In this document: positions 13,501 through 32,261 of the stretch, one piece after another
Position numbering within the stretch: the stretch's first letter is position 1
How the letters are laid out: the number at the start of each line of letters is the position of its first letter
NCBI GenBank assembly: GCA_036925085.1
Contig: JAUPFP010000063.1
Coordinates: 742,575 to 806,574, forward strand
Origin: Brachycybe producta
Taxonomy: Eukaryota; Arthropoda; Diplopoda; Playtdesmida; Andrognathidae
Direction of reading: 5' to 3'
Length of the DNA: 64,000 nucleotides
The notes under the pieces: generated by a model
What the model was told of the DNA's origin: nothing
Database searches by the model: none
What the model saw: the letters and a program-made list of their open reading frames with translations, nothing else
Made by a program: the position numbers and the translations under genes

Positions 13501-16500
13501 TTGATTTGGAAACGTGAAACATTAAAGAGTTTTCACTTCAAAGCCAATTTAATTATCAAAAATTTCAATTAAATATAATTACCTAATTTAAATTTAAAAC
13601 AAATCGATTCTATTTAATTTTTTTTTAAAGACACTGATCGGGTTTTTTAAAAATTTTATTTGTATTGTAGTTTTCCGACGATGAAATTATCGAGAAATTT
13701 AGTCCGGCAAATGAATGGTTTGTATTTTTTTAAAAACTAAGTTATATTACAAATTTGCATAAATATGTTAGTGAAAGGGAAAAATTGGAATAGAACTCTT
13801 GTTTATTTTCCGTTTAAATGAGGTTGTGACAAAAACACAATAAAGAACGACAGAAAAAGCAGATTTTACAAACAAAACAAACTTGAAACAAAAGTGCAAC
13901 ATGAATTCGAGACAAAAACATAACAAAAATATGCCAGAAAAAGCAGATTTTGAAAACAAAACAAACCTGAAACAAAAGTGCAACATGAGTTAGAGACAAA
14001 AACACAACAAAAACGCCAGAAAACCAGATTTTGAAAACAAAACAAAAGTGTAACATGAGTTCGAGACAAAAACACAACAAAGAACGACAGAAAAAACAGA
14101 GTTTGAAAACAAAAACAAAACTGAAACAACTGTCAGCAGTACTCGAGACAAAACCACAACAAATATACCAGAAAAAGAAGATTTTTAAAACAAAACAAAA
14201 GTGCAACATGAATTCGAGACAAAAACAGAACAAAAATAACAGAAAAAGGAGATTTTAAAAACAAAAACAAAACTGAAACAACTGTCAGCAGTTACTCAAG
14301 ACAAAACCACAACAAATTTGTGACAAAACACAAACAAAAGTGGTCATTTAATACCGAAGATAATTTTTAAAAATATCGTTCTGAAAAGCTGAAACCTTAA
14401 ATGATTTTTAATTTGAATAATTACTCTGCAAACAGCCCAGAGGGCCTATGACAGAGGGACAGTGTTGTCCACAGGCAACATAAGTCAAAGAAACCATGAA
14501 AAATATCCATTTCTTCACGCTTACAAAGGATTTTTTTTGTGGTATATTTCATTTTAAATTATGTGAAGGCGTGATGGATTGATCCGTTGTTTCTGTTGGC
14601 ATCCTCACACTTTAAAATTTGCCGTCGCTCAACGAGACGACACGATCAAGATCTTCTCGTCGCCTCAACGTATCAATCTCATCTTAAAACACCGTCAGCA
14701 GCAGATGATCTCAGATCTATCATGGCGGTTGGTGTAAAATCAACGTTATTATGGACTTGACATTTATTTAATTTAATTTTACAGTCCGTTGTCGAGTTCT
14801 ACTTTGGCCGTCGCGTGTCGTGTCGGCGTTGTCGTCTGGACGATCGATCCGACTTCGGTCGTATCGCGTCCTTCGTCTTCTTGCGTTCAGGTCTTGATAC
14901 GAAGCGGTCACTCGCCGGTTACTTCCGTTCGGTTCAGTCCGTGTGGACGTCTTCTCGTATCTGCATCGCCTCTCGACAAATCGATGATCGTACGGAATTT
15001 GAAGGAAAAATTTGCCACTTTGAGCATTTTAGAATACGGAATTGTTTGTTTTTAGGTTTGGGATGTAACAACACAGATTGGAGTTCCGTTAAAAAGAGTC
15101 ACGGGTGGCTGCGTGTCGTTTGTTCGTTGGTCACCCGATGGACAACGGCTCTTCGAAGCAACAACTTCGAAAGTCTTTCGGTATTTCACATTCTCACACT
15201 GACATTCAAAAACTGTTTTGAAGCTTTTTTTTTATTCCTTATATATAGCGTCTGGGAAACAAAGACTTGGACTTCAGATTTTTGGTCTTCTGGAACGGGA
15301 CGATGTCGTGCTGCGTGTTGGAGTCCCGATGGAGCCATTCTTTTGGCTGCCATGGACAATGAACCGCTCATCTATTCGATGTCGTTCACGGATTCTTTTG
15401 ACGAGACATCGAATTCGGTCGGTGGCTCCAAAGCAGCCGTTCCCGTCGTAAATCTAGCTGAAGTCGAATTCGATACGGAAATGTAATCGTTTATATTTTT
15501 TTTTTACTGAGTTGACTTCTGAATTTTTGCTTAAATTGTTTTCAGATAGTTTATTTTGAAAAATATTGTTATGAGAATACTTTCAGCCTATTTTACTATT
15601 CTAGTTTCTAAGAAACTTCTAAATCTCATGTTAAAATAGATTCCAAAAAAGTTTAATTTAAAAGATTGTGAAAATGTTTTCACTTTATTCTTTTACTCTT
15701 CTAGTTTTTAAGAAACTTCTAAATCTTGTGTTAAAATGCCTTCCAAAAAGTTTAATTTGAAAGATATTATTATGAAACTATTTTTTAATTTATTCTTTTA
15801 CTATTCTAGTTTCTAACAAGGTTCTGAATTTCTTCTTAAAGTTTTTTTTCTAAAATCTTCTTACATTTTGATTGATTTCAAATAGTTTATTTTGAAAAAT
15901 ATTGTTATGAGAATACTTTCAGCCTATTTTACTATTCTAGTTTTTAAGAAACTTCTAAATCTTGTGTTAAAATGCCTTCCAAAAAGTTTAATTTGAAAGA
16001 TATTATTATGAAACTATTTTTTAATTTATTCTTTTGCTATTCTAGTATCTAACAAACTTCTGAATTTCTTCTTAAAGTAGCTTCCCAAAAAGTTTATTTT
16101 GAAAAATATTGTTATGAAATTACTTTCATGTCATTCTTTTACTATTCTAGTTTCTAACAAGCTTCTGGATTTCTTCTTAAAAGTTTTTTTTTTTTCTAAA
16201 ATCTTCTTACATTTTGATTGATTTCAGTGTCGGAGGTTTCGTTCAGTCGATGGTTTGGGATAAAAGTGGGCAAAGGCTCGCAGTTTCGTTAAATTGCAAA
16301 GGTTTAAATAACAAAAAGTTCAAATTGAAACGGATCATCCATTTTTGCCCTTAAAACTAACTTCGTGTTTTCATTCTATGAACAGATTCTCGACAAGAAA
16401 TGGTTGTCGTTTTTCGTACTAAGACGAAACCTATTTTGGACATAACTCCATGGTTTGGATGAAAATTCTTTAAAAGTTGTTTAAATGACGAGAGTTTTTA

Positions 16501-19266: not shown

Positions 19267-22043
19267 TCAAGATTGTTTATTTCCAGCTTTGACTATTCTG
19301 AAGTAGCCGGTTAGTTCGAGGATCTTCTTGACGCCGAATAGTTGATGAAAAGTTAGAGCCAAAACGGAACCAATGACGGAACCGACCCAATAGACTAGAA
19401 AGAACTCGACGAAACTGTGTCCTTGACAGCCGAATTTAAGAGAAGAGGCTAAAACCGGATTGAAATAACCTCCGCTTGAATGAAGCGCTACGAAAGAAAT
19501 GTTTCGGTTAGAATTTGAATGATTACTCTGCAAATTTCTAAAAGGTTTAAGGTTGGTCCAATAGGTTTTTTGATTAGTATTAATTACAACTTTTGCTCGT
19601 AGTTGAAGTTGCTTGTCTAGTGCGTGCCCACACACATAAAATTGTACAGGAAAGCAATACGTTAAGGAGCGAATCTACCGAAAAACAAGTATGGTGCTTT
19701 TTAAAAACATCTTTTAAACAAAATTCGAAGTGTTTTAGAAACTAGATGCACAACTTAACAAGGTGATTACTTTTTTGTGACGAATCAGTTTAGAAATAAT
19801 TATTTTATGCCAGTTTTGAATTGTTTTGATTTTTTATCGGCATTTTAAAAATGTCATAAAACAATTATATCCAAACATAACATCGTTAAAGAATAACCAC
19901 TTGGTTAATTTATTTATCTAGTTTCGAAAACACTTTGAATTTTGTTCAAAAAATGCTTTTTAGAAGCTCCATACTTGAATCCGTGGGATCCGCTCCTTGA
20001 AATATTTTTTTGCCTTTTTAACTAAAATCCTTCACCTCCAGTCCAACCTTAATCGTTTTATGCAAACCTGACAATACGAGGAAAGTAGACAGTCCAGCTG
20101 TTGTAATCGTGGACTGTGGCCAGTTCATTTCCTCGAGTGTCAGTGCATTGAGCCGATCGATGAACGTGATTATGCCTTCGATGATGGCACCGTTTTTCAC
20201 CGTTACCTGTATTTTAAAAAAAAATCATTTTAATTTATTTAATTAATTACATTATTTAATTGAATTTTTATTTAGTGCCTGAAGATCTGCGTGACAATTT
20301 CTATCGCTGCTTTTATCTAAATGAGCATGCGACCAACCAAATGCCCATAGATAACGCATATATCTGCAAAGAAAATAGAAATTGAAAAAGTTTATTCACT
20401 TTTTAACAGTAATTAGGAGGAAAAAAAATAGGGATTTTTCCGCATATGGTAGGGATAATCGGGAAGTTGTAGCCTAATACAAAGTTGTAGGGATTTATTA
20501 ATGAGTCCTAGGGATATTATAGATACTTTACTTTAAAACAAGAAGGGAAACACATGATGCATAATCTGTGAAGCGGATAAGTGTACTAATATGGCGTTCT
20601 CTTTATGAAATCTAGACAATATAAAGACGCCATGTTAGGTCAACCTCTTTTCCATATTGATTTATGCTTCAATAACGTCAAGGAAGATAACCATCTTAAG
20701 AAACGTAGTGTTATTAACTTATTACAGTGCCGTTTTGTGTCCAAAATATATTTGAACGTAACTGACAATAGGACACAAAGTGTCGGTTAATGATAATGTT
20801 TTAACGTGGGGTCGTAAGAGATTACTAAGATAACATGCGGCTCGGTTTTTATTGGTTACTTGGTAATATGGCGGCTACGAGAAGCGGTTTATGCAAGTCG
20901 GTTTGTGAGTTTTAACGCGATTTCTTGCAAAATGAACTGAATTTGACAAGAAAACAGCCTGAAACAAATTTTGAGAATGTCATAACGAATGTGAGTACGT
21001 GGTTTTTGTGAAATTAAAGTGGTTGCACGTGACGATTATCGCGAATAACATCGCTTTCTAATGTAAGTGAACGGGATGACGTCATCCAAACTGGCATCTG
21101 GAATTTCTCCCGGGCAATAAAGATCACGTGACGTGAAGGTACGTTAGATTTCATTTCATTGACCTATGACGTAATATAATAACTACACCGTGGCAATATT
21201 TACGAGCTCGTATATCTGTTTTGCGAAGACGCAACAATTTTGACGCCTTTGTTGGAGGCTAGTGGTGCGATTTCAAAAGAATAGCCGCTAATTTTGCTTT
21301 TTTTTTTGCGCACGTGCCAATGAGGGAACGGGCTGACGATACAGGCAATTAGAAATCGGGACAAACAGAAGTTGGCTCCGCCCTTTTTATGACGAACGCA
21401 ACTTCTAATTGGTTGGTTATGTAGTCTGACGTCACATGCTCCGCCCCTTTTCAACGTCGCACCCACGCAACAAACCAATTAGAAGTTACCGGTCGTCATA
21501 AAAAGGGCGGAACCAATTTCTGTTTGTCCCGATTTCTAATTGCCTGTGCTGACGATGGGGTACATCGCTGTGAATAAGATGTGTGGCGCCATCTATTGCC
21601 ATTTAGTATAAAATGTCAAGTTTGTACTAAATGTCACTGAAAGGCGCCAAATACGCTTAAAAAAAATAAGTAAACGTGACTTACGTAAAGACTAATGAGC
21701 CGGCAACTATTTGCGCGAGAATCATCTGTCCGGCCCTATTGGGTCGCATTCGGCCCCTGATGACGTCCTCGACGTACTTGTTGGGGTTTGCGGCTGCATC
21801 ACCAAAACTATAGCACCACCAGACACACATAGCGAATAACAGAGGTCCAAAGATAAGAGCGCCATACATGTCGCACAGAAACGCCAGTTCGCAGCAGCCG
21901 CTACAGAAATCCATGGTCGTGATGAACTCCTCGGCTAGCAGGCGCCTTTTACGAGGAACCATTGTACGAGCCACGAGGCGAAGTCCGTGGAAGATGGCGG
22001 AAGTCGTCACCAAGTTAATGACACATGCGAATAGTGGGAACAT
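19267..22043 (-). CDS. AQP11: Unorthodox aquaporin of the AQP11/12 type, four exons
   Basis: Intracellular-type aquaporin (superaquaporin). Exons in order: 21685-22043, 20279-20363, 20068-20206, 19267-19487; phases match, giving 267 aa (human AQP11 271). An in-frame TAA lies five codons before the ATG at 22043. First pore loop: DAAANPNKYVEDV. Second: SSGGYFNPVLASSLKFGC, followed by FFLVYWVGSVIGSVLA. Both boxes are altered: NPN and NPV instead of NPA; in AQP11/12 the first is usually NPC or NPT and the second NPA. Intron 2 must start with GC (CAG|GCACTA), because no GT donor exists before a stop. AQP11 versus AQP12 is not separable by eye. A foldback MITE sits in intron 3, and the ATGGCG hairpin and a 9-bp-TSD MITE in intron 1. 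Confidence 0.88.
19664..19998. mobile_element. Foldback MITE with AAGGAGCGAATCTACC ends, AQP intron 3
   Basis: Left end TTAAGGAGCGAATCTACCG, right end GGATCCGCTCCTTGA. The arms carry TTTTAGAAACTAGATG and its partner CATCTAGTTTCGAAAACAC-like sequence. A better-preserved relative is at 60837-61158. Confidence 0.65.
20581..20643. repeat. ATGGCG/CGCCAT foldback, copy 4, AQP intron 1
   Basis: GTGTACTAATATGGCGTTCT at left, AAGACGCCATGTTAGGTCA at right. A further ATGGCGGCTACGAGAAGC motif lies at 20868. The rest of 20644-21340 has TGACGTCA-like sites (21075, 21170) but nothing else. Confidence 0.65.
21341..21547. mobile_element. ACAGGCAATTAGAA foldback MITE with perfect 9-bp TSD
   Basis: Begins ACAGGCAATTAGAAATCGGG and ends with its reverse complement; nearly the whole 207 bp folds back. 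GCTGACGAT flanks it on both sides (21332-21340 and 21548-21556). A 9-bp duplication with long inverted ends points to a Mutator-like (MULE) non-autonomous element. Inside are CATAAAAAGGGCGGA, ATGTAGTCTGACGTCACATG and ACCAATTAGAAGTT blocks. Confidence 0.9.
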
Positions 22044-23010: not shown

Positions 23011-23047
23011 AAGACAAGAATGTCTTCATTTCTGGTTAAAAATATAT

Positions 23048-24129
23048 ACAGGCAATTAGAAATCGGGACGAACTTTAGTTGGCTCCACCCTTTTTATGAC
23101 GACCGGCAACTTCTAATTTGGTTGGTTATGTAGTCTGACGTCACATGCTCTGCCCTTTTCGACGTCGAACCACACAACAAACCAATTAGAAGTTGCCGGT
23201 CGTCATAAAAAGGGGCGGAGCCAACTTCTGTTTGTCCCGATTTCTAATTGCCTGTGTGCACAAAAAAACAGGCAATTAGAATTCGGGACAAACAGAAGTT
23301 GGCGCCACCTTTTTTTATGACAGAAGCAACTTCTAATTGGTTGGTTATGTAGTCTGACGTCACATGCTCCGCCCTTTTCAACGTCGAACCCCATAACAAA
23401 CCAATTAGAAGTTGCCGGTCGTCATAAAAAGGGGCGGAGCCAACTTCTGTTTGTCCCGATTTCTAATTGCCTGTGTGCACAAAAACAGGCAATTAGAAAT
23501 CGGGACAAACAGAAGTTGGCGCCACTTTTTTTTATGACAGAAGCAACTTCTAATTGGTTGGTTATGTAGTCTGACGTCACATGCTCCGCCCTTTTCAACG
23601 TCGAACCACACAACAAACCAATTAGAAGTTGCCGGTCGTCATAAAAAGGGGCGGAGCCAACTTCTGTTTGTCCCGATTTCTAATTGCCTGTGTGCACAAA
23701 AAAACAGGCAATTAGAATTCGGAACAAACAGAAGTTGGCGCCACCTTTTTTTATGACAGAAGCAACTTCTAATTGGTTGGTTATGTAGTCCGACGTCACA
23801 TGCTCCGCCCTTTTCAACGTCGAACCACATAACAAACCAATTAGAAGTTTCCGGTCGTCATAAAAAGGGGCGGAGCCAACTTCTGTTTGTCCCGATTTCT
23901 AATTGCCTGTGTGCACAAAAAAACAGGCAATTAGAATTTGGGACAAACAGAAGTTGGCGCCACCTTTTTTTATGACAGAAGCAACTTCTAATTGGTTGGT
24001 TATGTAGTCTGACGTCACATGCTCCGCCCTTTTCAACGTCGAACCACATAACAAACCAATTAGAAGTTGCCGGTCGTCATAAAAAGGGGTGGAGCCAACT
24101 GAAGTTCGTCCCGATTTCTAATTGCCTGT
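23048..24129. mobile_element. Five-unit tandem array of the ACAGGCAATTAGAA MITE in one TSD
   Basis: Units at 23048-23255, 23268-23474, 23485-23691, 23704-23910 and 23923-24129, separated by GTGCACAAAAA-type spacers of 10-13 bp. The whole array is flanked by a single perfect 9-bp duplication AAAATATAT (23039-23047 and 24130-24138). The outermost arms share CGAACTT(T)AGTTGG / CCAACTGAAGTTCG and a TGGAG variant. The inner arms all read GGGACAAACAGAAGTTGG. No coding capacity. Confidence 0.9.
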
Positions 24130-24138
24130 AAAATATAT

Positions 24139-24845
24139 AAAGTTCTGATTATAATTTTAAATTTTTTATCCGCCATTTTTTTTTTGTCCTCATCATCAAC
24201 TTAAATAAAACAAAAAATGAGAAAGTGAATTTTTGATAGTTTCCTGTAATCGTTTTTGGATTACAAATTTACTTGACAATTTTAGTCAATTTTTTGGTAA
24301 ACATTTAACTAGAAAAGAAAAAAATGAGGTTATAATGTTGTTTTAAAATTCAAAACTTAACTATAATCGTGATTACAATATGTACTTACCTTTTTTTTTG
24401 ATTAAAATAGAAAATATTTTAAGTTAAGAACCAACCAAATTAAGAAAAGTTTTCCGATTTCCTTTCTTGAAATCCTTGAGAAAAAGTTTTTACATTTCTC
24501 TCTCTCTCTCTCTCTCTTTCTATTTGGCACTCGACAAAATGAATCGATAAGAAAAAATAACATAATTTCTATGTTTAGAATTTCAAAGAAAGTTTGGCTT
24601 TGAGTCAACAGTAAAAGTAATAAATATAACGAAACACAAAAAGAAAAGTTGCACAGAACTAAAAAAACAAACATAGAAAGTTCGGCAGCTTTGAAATGTT
24701 TATTAGAAAAGTTTTGAATTAACTAAATTAACGATAATTTAACGAATTGGTACATTGTTAACACCATGTAGTGAAAATTGAAAGATAACTTGTTAAGAAA
24801 ATCTGGAATAAAAATGATTTAAATGGAAATCGAAACATAACGAAA
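24139..24845. other. AT-rich spacer before the satellite
   Basis: Contains only a CT tract (24500-24518) and, from 24780, diverged lead-in units of the satellite. A short reverse-strand frame at 24402-24674 has no recognisable product. Confidence 0.4.
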
Positions 24846-24849
24846 TTAG

Positions 24850-27800
24850 AATTGAATAAAAACGATAACGAAAGGAGAATTGAATAAAAACGATAACGAA
24901 AGGAGAATTGAATAAAAACGATGACGAAAGGAGAATTGAATAAAAACGATAACGAACGGAGAATTGAATAAAAAAGATAACGAAAGGAGAATTGAATAAA
25001 AACGATAACGAAAGGAGAATTGAATAAAAACGATAACGACAGGAGAACTGAATAAAAACGATAACGACAGGAGAATTGAATAAAAACGATAACGACAGGA
25101 GAATTGAATAAAAACGATGACGAAAGGAGAATTGAATAAAAACGATAACGAAAGGAGAATTGAATAAAAACGATGACGAAAGGAGAATTGAATAAAAACG
25201 ATAACGAAAGGAGAATTGAATAAAAACGATAACGACAGGAGAACTGAATAAAAACGATAACGACAGGAGAATTGAATAAAAACGATGACGAAAGGAGAAT
25301 TGAATAAAAACGATAACGAAAGGAGAATTGAATAAAAACGATAACGACAGGAGAATTGAATAAAAACGATGACGAAAGGAGAATTGAATAAAAACGATAA
25401 CGAAAGGAGAATTGAATAAAAACGATAACGAAAGGAGAATTGAATAAAAACGATAACGAAAGGAGAATTGAATAAAAACGATAACGACAGGAGAACTGAA
25501 TAAAAACGATAACGACAGGAGAATTGAATAAAAACGATGACGAAAGGAGAATTGAATAAAAACGATAACGAACGGAGAATTGAATAAAAAAGATAACGAA
25601 AGGAGAATTGAATAAAAACGATAACGAAAGGAGAATTGAATAAAAACGATAACGACAGGAGAACTGAATAAAAACGATAACGACAGGAGAATTGAATAAA
25701 AACGATAACGACAGGAGAATTGAATAAAAACGATGACGAAAGGAGAATTGAATAAAAACGATAACGAAAGGAGAATTGAATAAAAACGATGACGAAAGGA
25801 GAATTGAATAAAAACGATAACGAAAGGAGAATTGAATAAAAACGATAACGACAGGAGAACTGAATAAAAACGATAACGACAGGAGAATTGAATAAAAACG
25901 ATGACGAAAGGAGAATTGAATAAAAACGATAACGAAAGGAGAATTGAATAAAAACGATAACGACAGGAGAATTGAATAAAAACGATGACGAAAGGAGAAT
26001 TGAATAAAAACGATAACGAAAGGAGAATTGAATAAAAACGATAACGAAAGGAGAATTGAATAAAAACGATAACGAAAGGAGAATTGAATAAAAACGATAA
26101 CGACAGGAGAACTGAATAAAAACGATAACGACAGGAGAATTGAATAAAAACGATAACGACAGGAGAATTGAATAAAAACGATAACGAAAGGAGAATTGAA
26201 TAAAAACGATAACGACAGGAGAATTGAATAAAAACGATGACGAAAGGAGAATTGAATAAAAACGATAACGAAAGGAGAATTGAATAAAAACGATAACGAC
26301 AGGAGAACTGAATAAAAACGATAACGACAGGAGAATTGAATAAAAACGATAACGACAGGAGAATTGAATAAAAACGATGACGAAAGGAGAATTGAATAAA
26401 AACGATAACGAAAGGAGAATTGAATAAAAACGATAACGACAGGAGAATTGAATAAAAACGATAACGACAGGAGAATTGAATAAAAACGATAACGACAGGA
26501 GAATTGAATAAAAACGATGACGAAAGGAGAATTGAATAAAAACGATAACGAAAGGAGAATTGAATAAAAACGATAACGAAAGGAGAATTGAATAAAAACG
26601 ATAACGACAGGAGAATTGAATAAAAACGATAACGAAAGGAGAATTTAATAAAAACGATAACGAAAGGAGAATTGAATAAAAACGATAACGAAAGGAGAAT
26701 TGAATAAAATCGATAACGACAGGAGAATTGAATAAAAACGATAACGAAAGGAGAATTGAATAAAAACGATAACGAAAGGAGAATTGAATAAAAACGATAA
26801 CGACAGGAGAATTGAATAAAAACGATAACGACAGGAGAACTGAATAAAAACGATGACGAAAGGAGAATTGAATAAAAACGATGACGAAAGGAGAATTGAA
26901 TAAAAACGATAACGAAAGGAGAATTGAATAAAAACGATAACGAAAGGAGAATTGAATAAAAACGATGACGAAAGGAGAATTGAATAAAAACGATGACGAA
27001 AGGAGAATTGAATAAAAACGATAACGAAAGGAGAATTGAATAAAAACGATAACGACAGGAGAACTGAATAAAAACGATAACGACAGGAGAATTGAATAAA
27101 AACGATGACGAAAGGAGAATTGAATAAAAACGATAACGAAAGGAGAATTGAATAAAAACGATAACGACAGGAGAACTGAATAAAAACGATAACGACAGGA
27201 GAATTGAATAAAAACGATAACGACAGGAGAATTGAATAAAAACGATAACGAAAGGAGAATTGAATAAAAACGATAACGACAGGAGAATTGAATAAAAACG
27301 ATGACGAAAGGAGAATTGAATAAAAACGATAACGAAAGGAGAATTGAATAAAAACGATAACGACAGGAGAACTGAATAAAAACGATAACGACAGGAGAAT
27401 TGAATAAAAACGATAACGACAGGAGAATTGAATAAAAACGATGACGAAAGGAGAATTGAATAAAAACGATGACGAAAGGAGAATTGAATAAAAACGATAA
27501 CGACAGGAGAATTGAATAAAAACGATAACGACAGGAGAATTGAATAAAAACGATAACGACAGGAGAATTGAATAAAAACGATAACGACAGGAGAATTGAA
27601 TAAAAACGATGACGAAAGGAGAATTGAATAAAAACGATAACGAAAGGAGAATTGAATAAAAACGATAACGAAAGGAGAATTGAATAAAAACGATAACGAC
27701 AGGAGAATTGAATAAAAACGATAACGAAAGGAGAATTTAATAAAAACGATAACGAAAGGAGAATTGAATAAAAACGATAACGAAAGGAGAATTGAATAAA

Positions 27801-29130
27801 ATCGATAACGACAGGAGAATTGAATAAAAACGATAACGAAAGGAGAATTGAATAAAAACGATAACGAAAGGAGAATTGAATAAAAACGATAACGACAGGA
27901 GAATTGAATAAAAACGATAACGAAAGGAGAATTGAATAAAAACGATAACGAAAGGAGAATTGAATAAAAACGATAACGAAAGGAGAATTGAATAAAAACG
28001 ATAACGAAAGGAGAATTGAATAAAAACGATAACGAAAGGAGAATTGAATAAAAACGATAACGACAGGAGAATTGAATAAAAACGATAACGAAAGGAGAAT
28101 TGAATAAAATCGATAACGACAGGAGAATTGAATAAAAACGATAACGAAAGGAGAATTGAATAAAAACGATAACGAAAGGAGAATTGAATAAAATCGATAA
28201 CGACAGGAGAATTGAATAAAAACGATAACGAAAGGAGAATTGAATAAAAACGATAACGAAAGGAGAATTGAATAAAAACGATAACGAAAGGAGAATTGAA
28301 TAAAAACGATAACGAAAGGAGAATTGAATAAAAACGATAACGAAAGGAGAATTGAATAAAAACGATAACGAAAGGAGAATTGAATAAAAACGATAACGAC
28401 AGGAGAATTGAATAAAAACGATAACGAAAGGAGAATTGAATAAAAACGATAACGAAAGGAGAATTGAATAAAAACGATAACGACAGGAGAATTGAATAAA
28501 AACGATAACGAAAGGAGAATTGAATAAAATCGATAACGACAGGAGAATTGAATAAAAACGATAACGAAAGGAGAATTTGAATAAAAACGATAACGAAAGG
28601 AGAATTGAATAAAAACGATAACGAAAGGAGAATTGAATAAAAACGATAACGAAAGGAGAATTGAATAAAAACGATAACGACAGGAGAATTGAATAAAAAC
28701 GATAACGACAGGAGAACTGAATAAAAACGATGACGAAAGGAGAATTGAATAAAAACGATGACGAAAGGAGAATTGAATAAAAACGATGACGAAAGGAGAA
28801 TTGAATAAAAACGATGACGAAAGGAGAATTGAATAAAAACGATAACGAAAGGAGAATTGAATAAAAACGATAACGAAAGGAGAATTGAATAAAAACGATA
28901 ACGACAGGAGAATTGAATAAAAACGATAACGACAGGAGAACTGAATAAAAACGATGACGAAAGGAGAATTGAATAAAAACGATGACGAAAGGAGAATTGA
29001 ATAAAAACGATGACGAAAGGAGAATTGAATAAAAACGATGACGAAAGGAGAATTGAATAAAAACGATAACGAAAGGAGAATTGAATAAAAACGATAACGA
29101 AAGGAGAATTGAATAAAAACGATAACGAAA
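24850..29130. repeat. 28-bp satellite, about 153 units, with higher-order repeats
   Basis: Unit core GAATTGAATAAAAACGAT followed by AACGAAAGGA. Point variants mark units: GACAGG, GATGACG, GAACTG, AACGGA, AAATCG. Rare variants recur at exact multiples of 28: the AACGAACGGA/AAAAAAG pair at 24951 and 25567 (616 bp = 22 units), and GAATTTAAT and AAATCG near 26645/26710 and 27737/27802 (1092 bp = 39 units). One inserted T at about 28575 shifts the phase. Because 3 x 28 = 84 and the reverse strand has no stop in any frame, it shows two meaningless 1,450-aa reading frames. Confidence 0.97.
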
Positions 29131-29452: not shown

Positions 29453-29658
29453 ACAGGCAATTAGAAATCGGGACGAACTTCAGTTGGCTCCGCTCTTTTT
29501 ATGACGAACGGCAACTTCTAATTGGTTTGTTGTGTGGTTCGACGTTGAAAAGGGCGGAGCATGTGACGTCAGACTACATAACCAACCAATTAGAAGTTGC
29601 CGTTCGTCATAAAAAGGGCGGAGCCAACTGATATTCGTCCCGATTTCTAATTGCGTGT
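29453..29658. mobile_element. ACAGGCAATTAGAA MITE with 9-bp TSD
   Basis: 206 bp, same family as 21341-21547, here with GGGACGAACTTCAGTTGG arms. Target duplication GGATCGGAA (29444-29452) against GGATCGGAG (29659-29667), 8 of 9 identical. Confidence 0.88.
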
Positions 29659-31963: not shown

Positions 31964-32261
31964 ACAGGCAATTAGAAAACGGGACGAACTTCAGTTGGCT
32001 CCGTTCTTTTTATGACGAACGGCAACTTCTAATTGGTTTGTTGTGTGGTTCGACGTTGAAAAGGACGGAGCATGTGACGTCAGCCACTACATAACAAACC
32101 AATTAGAAGTTGCCGGTTCTCATAAAAAAGAAACGGAGCCAACTTCTGTTCATCTCGTTTTCTAATTGCCTGTTTTTTCTGGACAGGCAATTAGAAAACG
32201 GGATAAACAGAAGTTGGCTCCGTTTCTTTTTTATGAGAACCGGCAACTTCTAATTGGTTTC
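31964..32261. mobile_element. One and a half ACAGGCAATTAGAA MITE units
   Basis: A full unit (31964-32173), then a 9-bp spacer, then a second ACAGGCAATTAGAAAACGGG start at 32183 that stops after the first arm at about 32261. Right arms use GGGATAAACAGAAG-type sequence. A partial form of the array seen at 23048-24129. Confidence 0.8.

Follow-up and report, generated by a model that had tools for sequence, protein, structure and literature searches.

Several described systems resemble the array reported here, as far as the parts of the sources used here show. Dimers of transposable elements formed by double insertion have been described as satellite seeds (McGurk and Barbash 2018, via PMC12628747, PMC12368964 and PMC9659126). 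According to these accounts, they share with our locus head-to-tail copies and a short target-derived junction, but our array has a spacer that differs from its own duplication, and all five units lie within one outer duplication. Tetris/TIR-220 of Drosophila virilis is a foldback element with 8–10 bp duplications and tandem units of ~220 bp, whose copy number change is attributed in the consulted part of the report to unequal crossing over (PMC4079207). Its repeats, however, lie within long terminal repeats, whereas here a complete short element is repeated together with a spacer. In Atlantic cod, tandem hAT-derived MITEs likewise form units of 167–169 bp with inverted repeats, but they differ in their hAT origin and in building kilobase arrays at inversion breakpoints; in the parts of PMC12368964 consulted, outer arms that match each other but enclose another core are not mentioned. 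In Xenopus, Xstir (Hikosaka and Kawahara, via PMC12628747) is a MITE known as a tandem array and in composite forms, for which hybrid elements derived from two neighbours were proposed. As summarized there, its repeat is thought to derive from internal sequence, unlike our array of whole units with spacers. Multimeric MITEs are already known; the part that appears new is a shell-and-core pattern, in which matched outer arms enclose a different core.

The array lies in a 64-kb stretch of DNA, hereafter the window. It consists of five head-to-tail foldback units at C63:765622–766703, enclosed by one perfect 9-bp duplication, AAAATATAT (Table 1). A 9-bp duplication together with inverted ends is the signature of a transposon insertion, and both copies of AAAATATAT directly adjoin, on the outer side, the element ends ACAGG...CCTGT. 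Counting both strands, the window contains this 9-mer 28 times; the chance of a match at one fixed place is, by a rough estimate, ~2 in 10,000. The original prediction had described five complete 207-bp foldback units within one perfect duplication, joined by GTGCAC-type spacers and free of target duplications in between. The enclosing duplication is confirmed by the sequence at both ends, and the unit length is correct for units 2–5 but not for unit 1, which has 208 bp. The four spacers (10–12 bp) have the predicted GTGCACAAAA(AA) form, GTGCACAAAAAA occurring three times and GTGCACAAAA once, and none of them equals AAAATATAT.

Table 1. Coordinates of the foldback array and of related single units in the window.
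Feature	Position	Strand	Remark
Left target-site duplication AAAATATAT	23039..23047	+	sequence; identical to 24130-24138, repeat family D13
Unit 1, 208 bp	23048..23255	+	first ~115 bp unlike units 2-4
Outer left arm, GACGAACTTTAG type	23048..23107	+	
Spacer GTGCACAAAAAA between units 1 and 2	23256..23267	+	
Unit 2, 207 bp	23268..23474	+	inner core; folding computed
Spacer GTGCACAAAA between units 2 and 3	23475..23484	+	
Unit 3, 207 bp	23485..23691	+	inner core
Spacer GTGCACAAAAAA between units 3 and 4	23692..23703	+	
Unit 4, 207 bp	23704..23910	+	inner core
Spacer GTGCACAAAAAA between units 4 and 5	23911..23922	+	
Unit 5, 207 bp	23923..24129	+	last ~40 bp with outer-type variants, remainder resembles units 2-4
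Outer right arm, GACGAACTTCAG type	24070..24129	-	matches outer left arm; inverted repeat I17: 49 nt, 96% complementary
Right target-site duplication AAAATATAT	24130..24138	+	sequence
Single unit, same family as array	21341..21547	+	own duplication GCTGACGAT
Single unit	29453..29658	-	arm tree; both arms inside clade of the array's outer arms

Every unit of the array is a hairpin; that of unit 2 has two 54-nt arms, 91% complementary, around 99 nt. Its computed fold of -76.1 kcal/mol compares with a shuffle mean of -21.8 (z = -16.45), and none of 200 shuffles reached it. With its long arms and stable predicted hairpin, the 207-bp unit qualifies as a foldback element. An Rfam search of the 64-kb window gave no match.

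The family extends across the searched genome (295 Mb in 442 contigs), which contains 1805 exact-ended units, array members included (control 0), and 70 exact unit-unit junctions (control 0). As the two search patterns are palindromes, the hits on either strand are the same sites. Being short, present in many copies and equipped with terminal inverted repeats and a fixed 9-bp duplication, the family is a non-autonomous MITE. We dissected 54 arrays, of which 36 are dimers, 15 trimers and 2 tetramers; the window array, a pentamer, is the longest of this set. Because the first similarity search scored only 40 of 5407 candidates, longer arrays may exist. An outer duplication at a score of at least 7 was found in 31 of the 54 arrays. 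In the first set the corresponding figures were 26 of 49 arrays and 20 of 41 single units, compared with 1.0% for swapped flanks. One outer duplication is therefore a common state, and the expectation that multimeric MITEs with one flanking duplication are uncommon does not hold in this genome, given its 70 junctions and 31 such arrays. L026 is counted among the 31, yet a partial third unit follows, so that the right copy lies inside the array.

Several loci were left out of the dissected set: L001, L022, L028, L030–L032, L036, L040 and L042 as repeats of one place, L029 for having no unit, and L037, L039, L045, L048, L049, L054, L060, L061, L065 and L066 because a junction unit covered fewer than 190 model positions. 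Also left out was unit 4 of L058, which has a duplication of its own and is an adjacent insertion.

This family displays many early stages in one genome, from single units through dimers up to a pentamer, and many arrays keep both an outer duplication, which marks the insertion, and a spacer, which serves as a tag. Like many other arrays of this genome, the window array shows a foldback MITE at a real early stage of becoming a satellite. How dispersed transposons turn into tandem satellite repeats is the broader question to which the family speaks. We regard it as parasitic DNA becoming a short satellite-like array, with no function implied.

The arms of the window array fall into distinct types. 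The left arm of unit 1 and the right arm of unit 5, also written as GACGAACTTYAG arms, are 60 nt long and differ from each other at 3 aligned positions. Their differences number 7 and 5, respectively, in comparison with the inner right arms and 13–16 in comparison with the inner left arms (15–16 for the unit 1 arm alone). The original prediction had proposed an arm tree as a check, and in a midpoint-rooted tree of 20 window arms these two arms group with a support of 0.815; column bootstrapping places them closest to each other in 730 of 1000 replicates. A wider clade (0.92) unites them with both arms of the monomers at 29453 and 45239 and one arm of the unit at 31964; the inner arms are placed elsewhere, away from this clade. 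The further claim that the outer-arm variants are absent from all inner arms stands only in part: the outer arms do pair, but the CCACC A variant is also present in the inner left arms. The start of unit 1 and the end of unit 5 look as if they were the ends of one element around a foreign core. A second, decayed dimer is present in the window at 31964–32261, where a full unit is joined to a partial second one by TTTTTCTGG.

Units 2–4 are nearly identical, and the inner left-arm variant occurs at four places in the genome (up to 2 mismatches; control 0), which are precisely the four inner left arms here. The restriction of this variant to the window array strongly supports multiplication of units 2–5 within the array, whether at the present site or, in the case of block movement, at a donor site that has since been lost. 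A genome search with the right flank of the array found no empty site and returned the self-match and 15 short pieces only.

The outer arms of duplication-bearing arrays behave like the two ends of one element. Over 36 arm positions, with the 14 terminal bases that the search pattern prescribes set aside, these arms agree at 0.909, versus 0.859 expected from swapping partners between arrays (n = 31, z = 6.7, 0/5000 shuffles), whereas arms at the first junction show no excess (0.869 versus 0.872 expected). The match is found by either route of discovery, with z = 4.2 for junction-found (n = 15) and z = 4.6 for similarity-found arrays (n = 15), and persists when the window array is removed (n = 30, z = 6.1). 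In L005, L041 and L026 a partial outer unit was lost, so that one outer arm is misassigned in each; the former two stand in the class without duplication and L026 in the duplication-bearing class, where its removal leaves 0.910 versus 0.860 (n = 30, z = 6.3, 0/5000). For comparison, the two arms of single units agree at 0.876 versus 0.839 (n = 41). The outer-arm match is weaker in arrays without an outer duplication (n = 22, z = 2.1), in which the stronger pair is formed by the left arm and the left arm of the next unit (z = 3.3), as after plain duplication. Among some arrays, exemplified by L055, units 1 and 2 bear the same arm variants, again as in plain duplication. The outer arms of the five last GGAG loci do not rise above expectation (0.83, 0.92, 0.78, 0.86 and 0.86).

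Spacers recur at unrelated sites and can be read as tags. The 54 arrays contain 76 spacers of 7–30 bp, 29 of them no longer than 15 bp. A search for the 18-mer GGAGTACGGTCCTTTTTT gave 17 sites (control 0) in 14 loci, on contigs C25 (1), C31 (10), C78 (1) and C93 (5), and at all 17 it sits between two units of the family, the second unit being partial in L060 and L061. An outer duplication could be read in ten of these 14 loci, and no two of the ten are alike. The GTCC spacer pattern gave five exact junctions, and two spacer families coexist within one array in L006, L050, L052 and L056. Spacer families concentrate on contigs C31 and C93 and, among the matches listed, on C22.

The GTGCAC pattern has five matches in the genome (one for the reversed control): three of the four window junctions, the fourth spacer being too short, a place on C4 without units, and a dimer (L012) at C1:20606251. 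Of the other GTGCAC multimers that the original prediction suggested searching for, this dimer is the one found. It has the same spacer as the window array, and its right junction arm agrees at 34 of 36 positions, while its left junction arm matches at 28 of 36, below its outer arms (32 and 31), which are of different types from those of the window array. Since the left junction arm is not shared, no donor array is identified.

Junctions between units can arise in more than one way. Neighbours have the same orientation at 32 and opposite orientation at 5 junctions of loci found by the junction pattern, which is blind to orientation, and at 39 and 2 of similarity-found loci, respectively, junctions within a spacer family not being independent in either set. 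In L038, TCTGTAGAC precedes unit 1 and opens the spacer, and GAATTTCT closes the spacer and follows unit 2; scores are 9.0 for left flank and spacer start, 8.0 for spacer end and right flank, and 0.0 for the outer pair. L038 is a clean double insertion, each unit with its own duplication and no outer one, and fits the double-insertion dimer model as outlined in the sources consulted. The window array was also considered as a dimer of this type and was rejected, as its spacer ends score 0.0 and 2.0 and the outer pair 9.0.

In L026 a 25-bp spacer, which opens with the duplication, recurs after the second unit, and the spacers of L008 and L009 resemble their own duplications. Across 49 arrays, the likeness of spacers to their own flanks is slightly above that to the flanks of others, a value attained in 232 of 5000 shuffles; the match of L041 included in it is trivial. 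From L038, and from L026, L008 and L009, we infer that junctions can be born by double insertion and probably also by duplication together with flank.

Locus L006 (1501–3312) contains two trimers in inverted order. Their right outer arms, and over 130 bp of the flank beyond, are almost identical, but their left flanks are unrelated. It was considered as a duplicated locus with different cores and rejected, because the likeness is confined to the right end and its flank; it is probably a recombination product between arrays and for that reason not a clean test. A related inverted-repeat sequence at L075:1108–1239, flanked by CTGTAGACAGCTTCAGAATTTCT, resembles the loop of the unit (a weak match), and its end is similar to the spacers of L038, L046 and L047. 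Sequence of this type may be an insertion hot spot.

The single outer duplication, the spacers unlike it, the private inner-arm variant and the grouping of the outer arms give good support to one insertion rather than five, in line with the original prediction. Its second part, internal multiplication of the inserted copy, is insufficient in pure form, because the inner arms belong to another subfamily and the same spacer joins the C1:20606251 dimer with its different outer arms. Plain tandem duplication of the inserted unit in place, with the inner arms drifting later, would agree with an inner variant private to this array, with the mostly head-to-tail order of junction-found loci and with the spacers close to their own duplication in L008, L009 and L026. 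However, the window spacer is unrelated to AAAATATAT, the subfamily difference of the inner arms goes beyond mere decay, and the same 12-bp spacer is present at a second locus; we consider this origin improbable. Several independent insertions side by side, which the family exhibits at L038, are a highly improbable origin of the pentamer, given one outer duplication absent from all four spacers and nearly identical units 2–4 with their private variant.

Another possibility is that a multimer formed elsewhere moved as a block, using its outermost ends at AAAATATAT, in which case the spacer would be a fossil of the donor site. Spacers unlike the outer duplication in most arrays, the constant position of GGAGTACGGTCCTTTTTT among ten different duplications, and clustering that resembles local hopping (GGAG with 10 of 17 on C31 and 5 on C93; GTCTG with 6 of 7 on C22 among the 50 of 70 junctions listed) are consistent with such movement, and the private inner variant is also what multiplication at a donor site now lost would produce. 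A moving block should nevertheless carry its outer arms along, whereas a core copied into different single insertions should not; the shell-and-core reading rests mainly on this argument. Arrays of the same spacer family do not share outer arms: similarity within versus between families is 0.839 versus 0.845 for outer left and 0.839 versus 0.851 for outer right arms, and array ends compared by spacer family give z = -3.3 and -0.6, that is, no similarity, the negative value being without explanation. The window array and L012 are one such pair. Block movement, the strongest of the rival readings, seems rather unlikely to us.

The signal expected beside the spacer is moderate and mainly one-sided. 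Within-family likeness reaches z = 2.9 (4/2000) at positions 183–206 of the left unit, one of 16 bins, with z = 1.7 at left unit 157–182 and z = 1.5 (139/2000) at right unit 1–26 among the same bins, all values being uncorrected for multiple testing. The right-side signal fell from z = 2.8 to 1.5 after five loci were added, and over its full length the left junction arm is no more alike within spacer families than expected (0.860 versus 0.864).

We hypothesize, with about an even chance of being right, that the pentamer began as one foldback insertion, that recombination with another array supplied its interior, and that this interior later expanded. As the sequence itself indicates, an element of the GACGAACTTCAG arm type inserted with a 9-bp duplication, and its outer arms and duplication persist as a shell. 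A break in the hairpin-prone middle may then have been repaired from an array with a GTGCAC junction, placing a core of right arm, spacer and left arm between the arms of the shell. Tandem units expand through unequal exchange, and multiplication of the core unit by this route within the array, the strongly supported step, would have produced the near-identical units 2–4. The first junctions would have formed elsewhere, by two close insertions as in L038 or, as L026 suggests, by duplication of a unit with its flank.

More generally, a junction with its spacer could be a transmissible core, copied by gene conversion into other single insertions, so that arrays spread without transposing; we propose this tentatively, giving it somewhat less than an even chance. 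If true, the spacer would be a heritable tag tracing spread between fixed insertion sites, arrays could seed many sites without transposition, and ectopic conversion would be traceable by spacer families.

Members of the MULE superfamily generate target duplications of 9–10 bp. The 9-bp duplication of the array family fits this, though it is not specific to MULEs. The genome contains 21 MULE matches, and none of the three of these loci inspected (L068–L070) is flanked by termini of the 207-bp family. The Pfam search took in 10 of the 28 window ORFs, none overlapping the array. Part of the ORF at 14815–15486 matches the Aladin beta-propeller with 78 bits, below the curated cut-off, and is probably an exon. 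About 700 bp to the right of the array lies a 4.3-kb satellite (24833–29130) with a 28-bp unit in 153.5 copies and 96% matches; the long ORFs in this interval are by-products of the 28-bp repeat.
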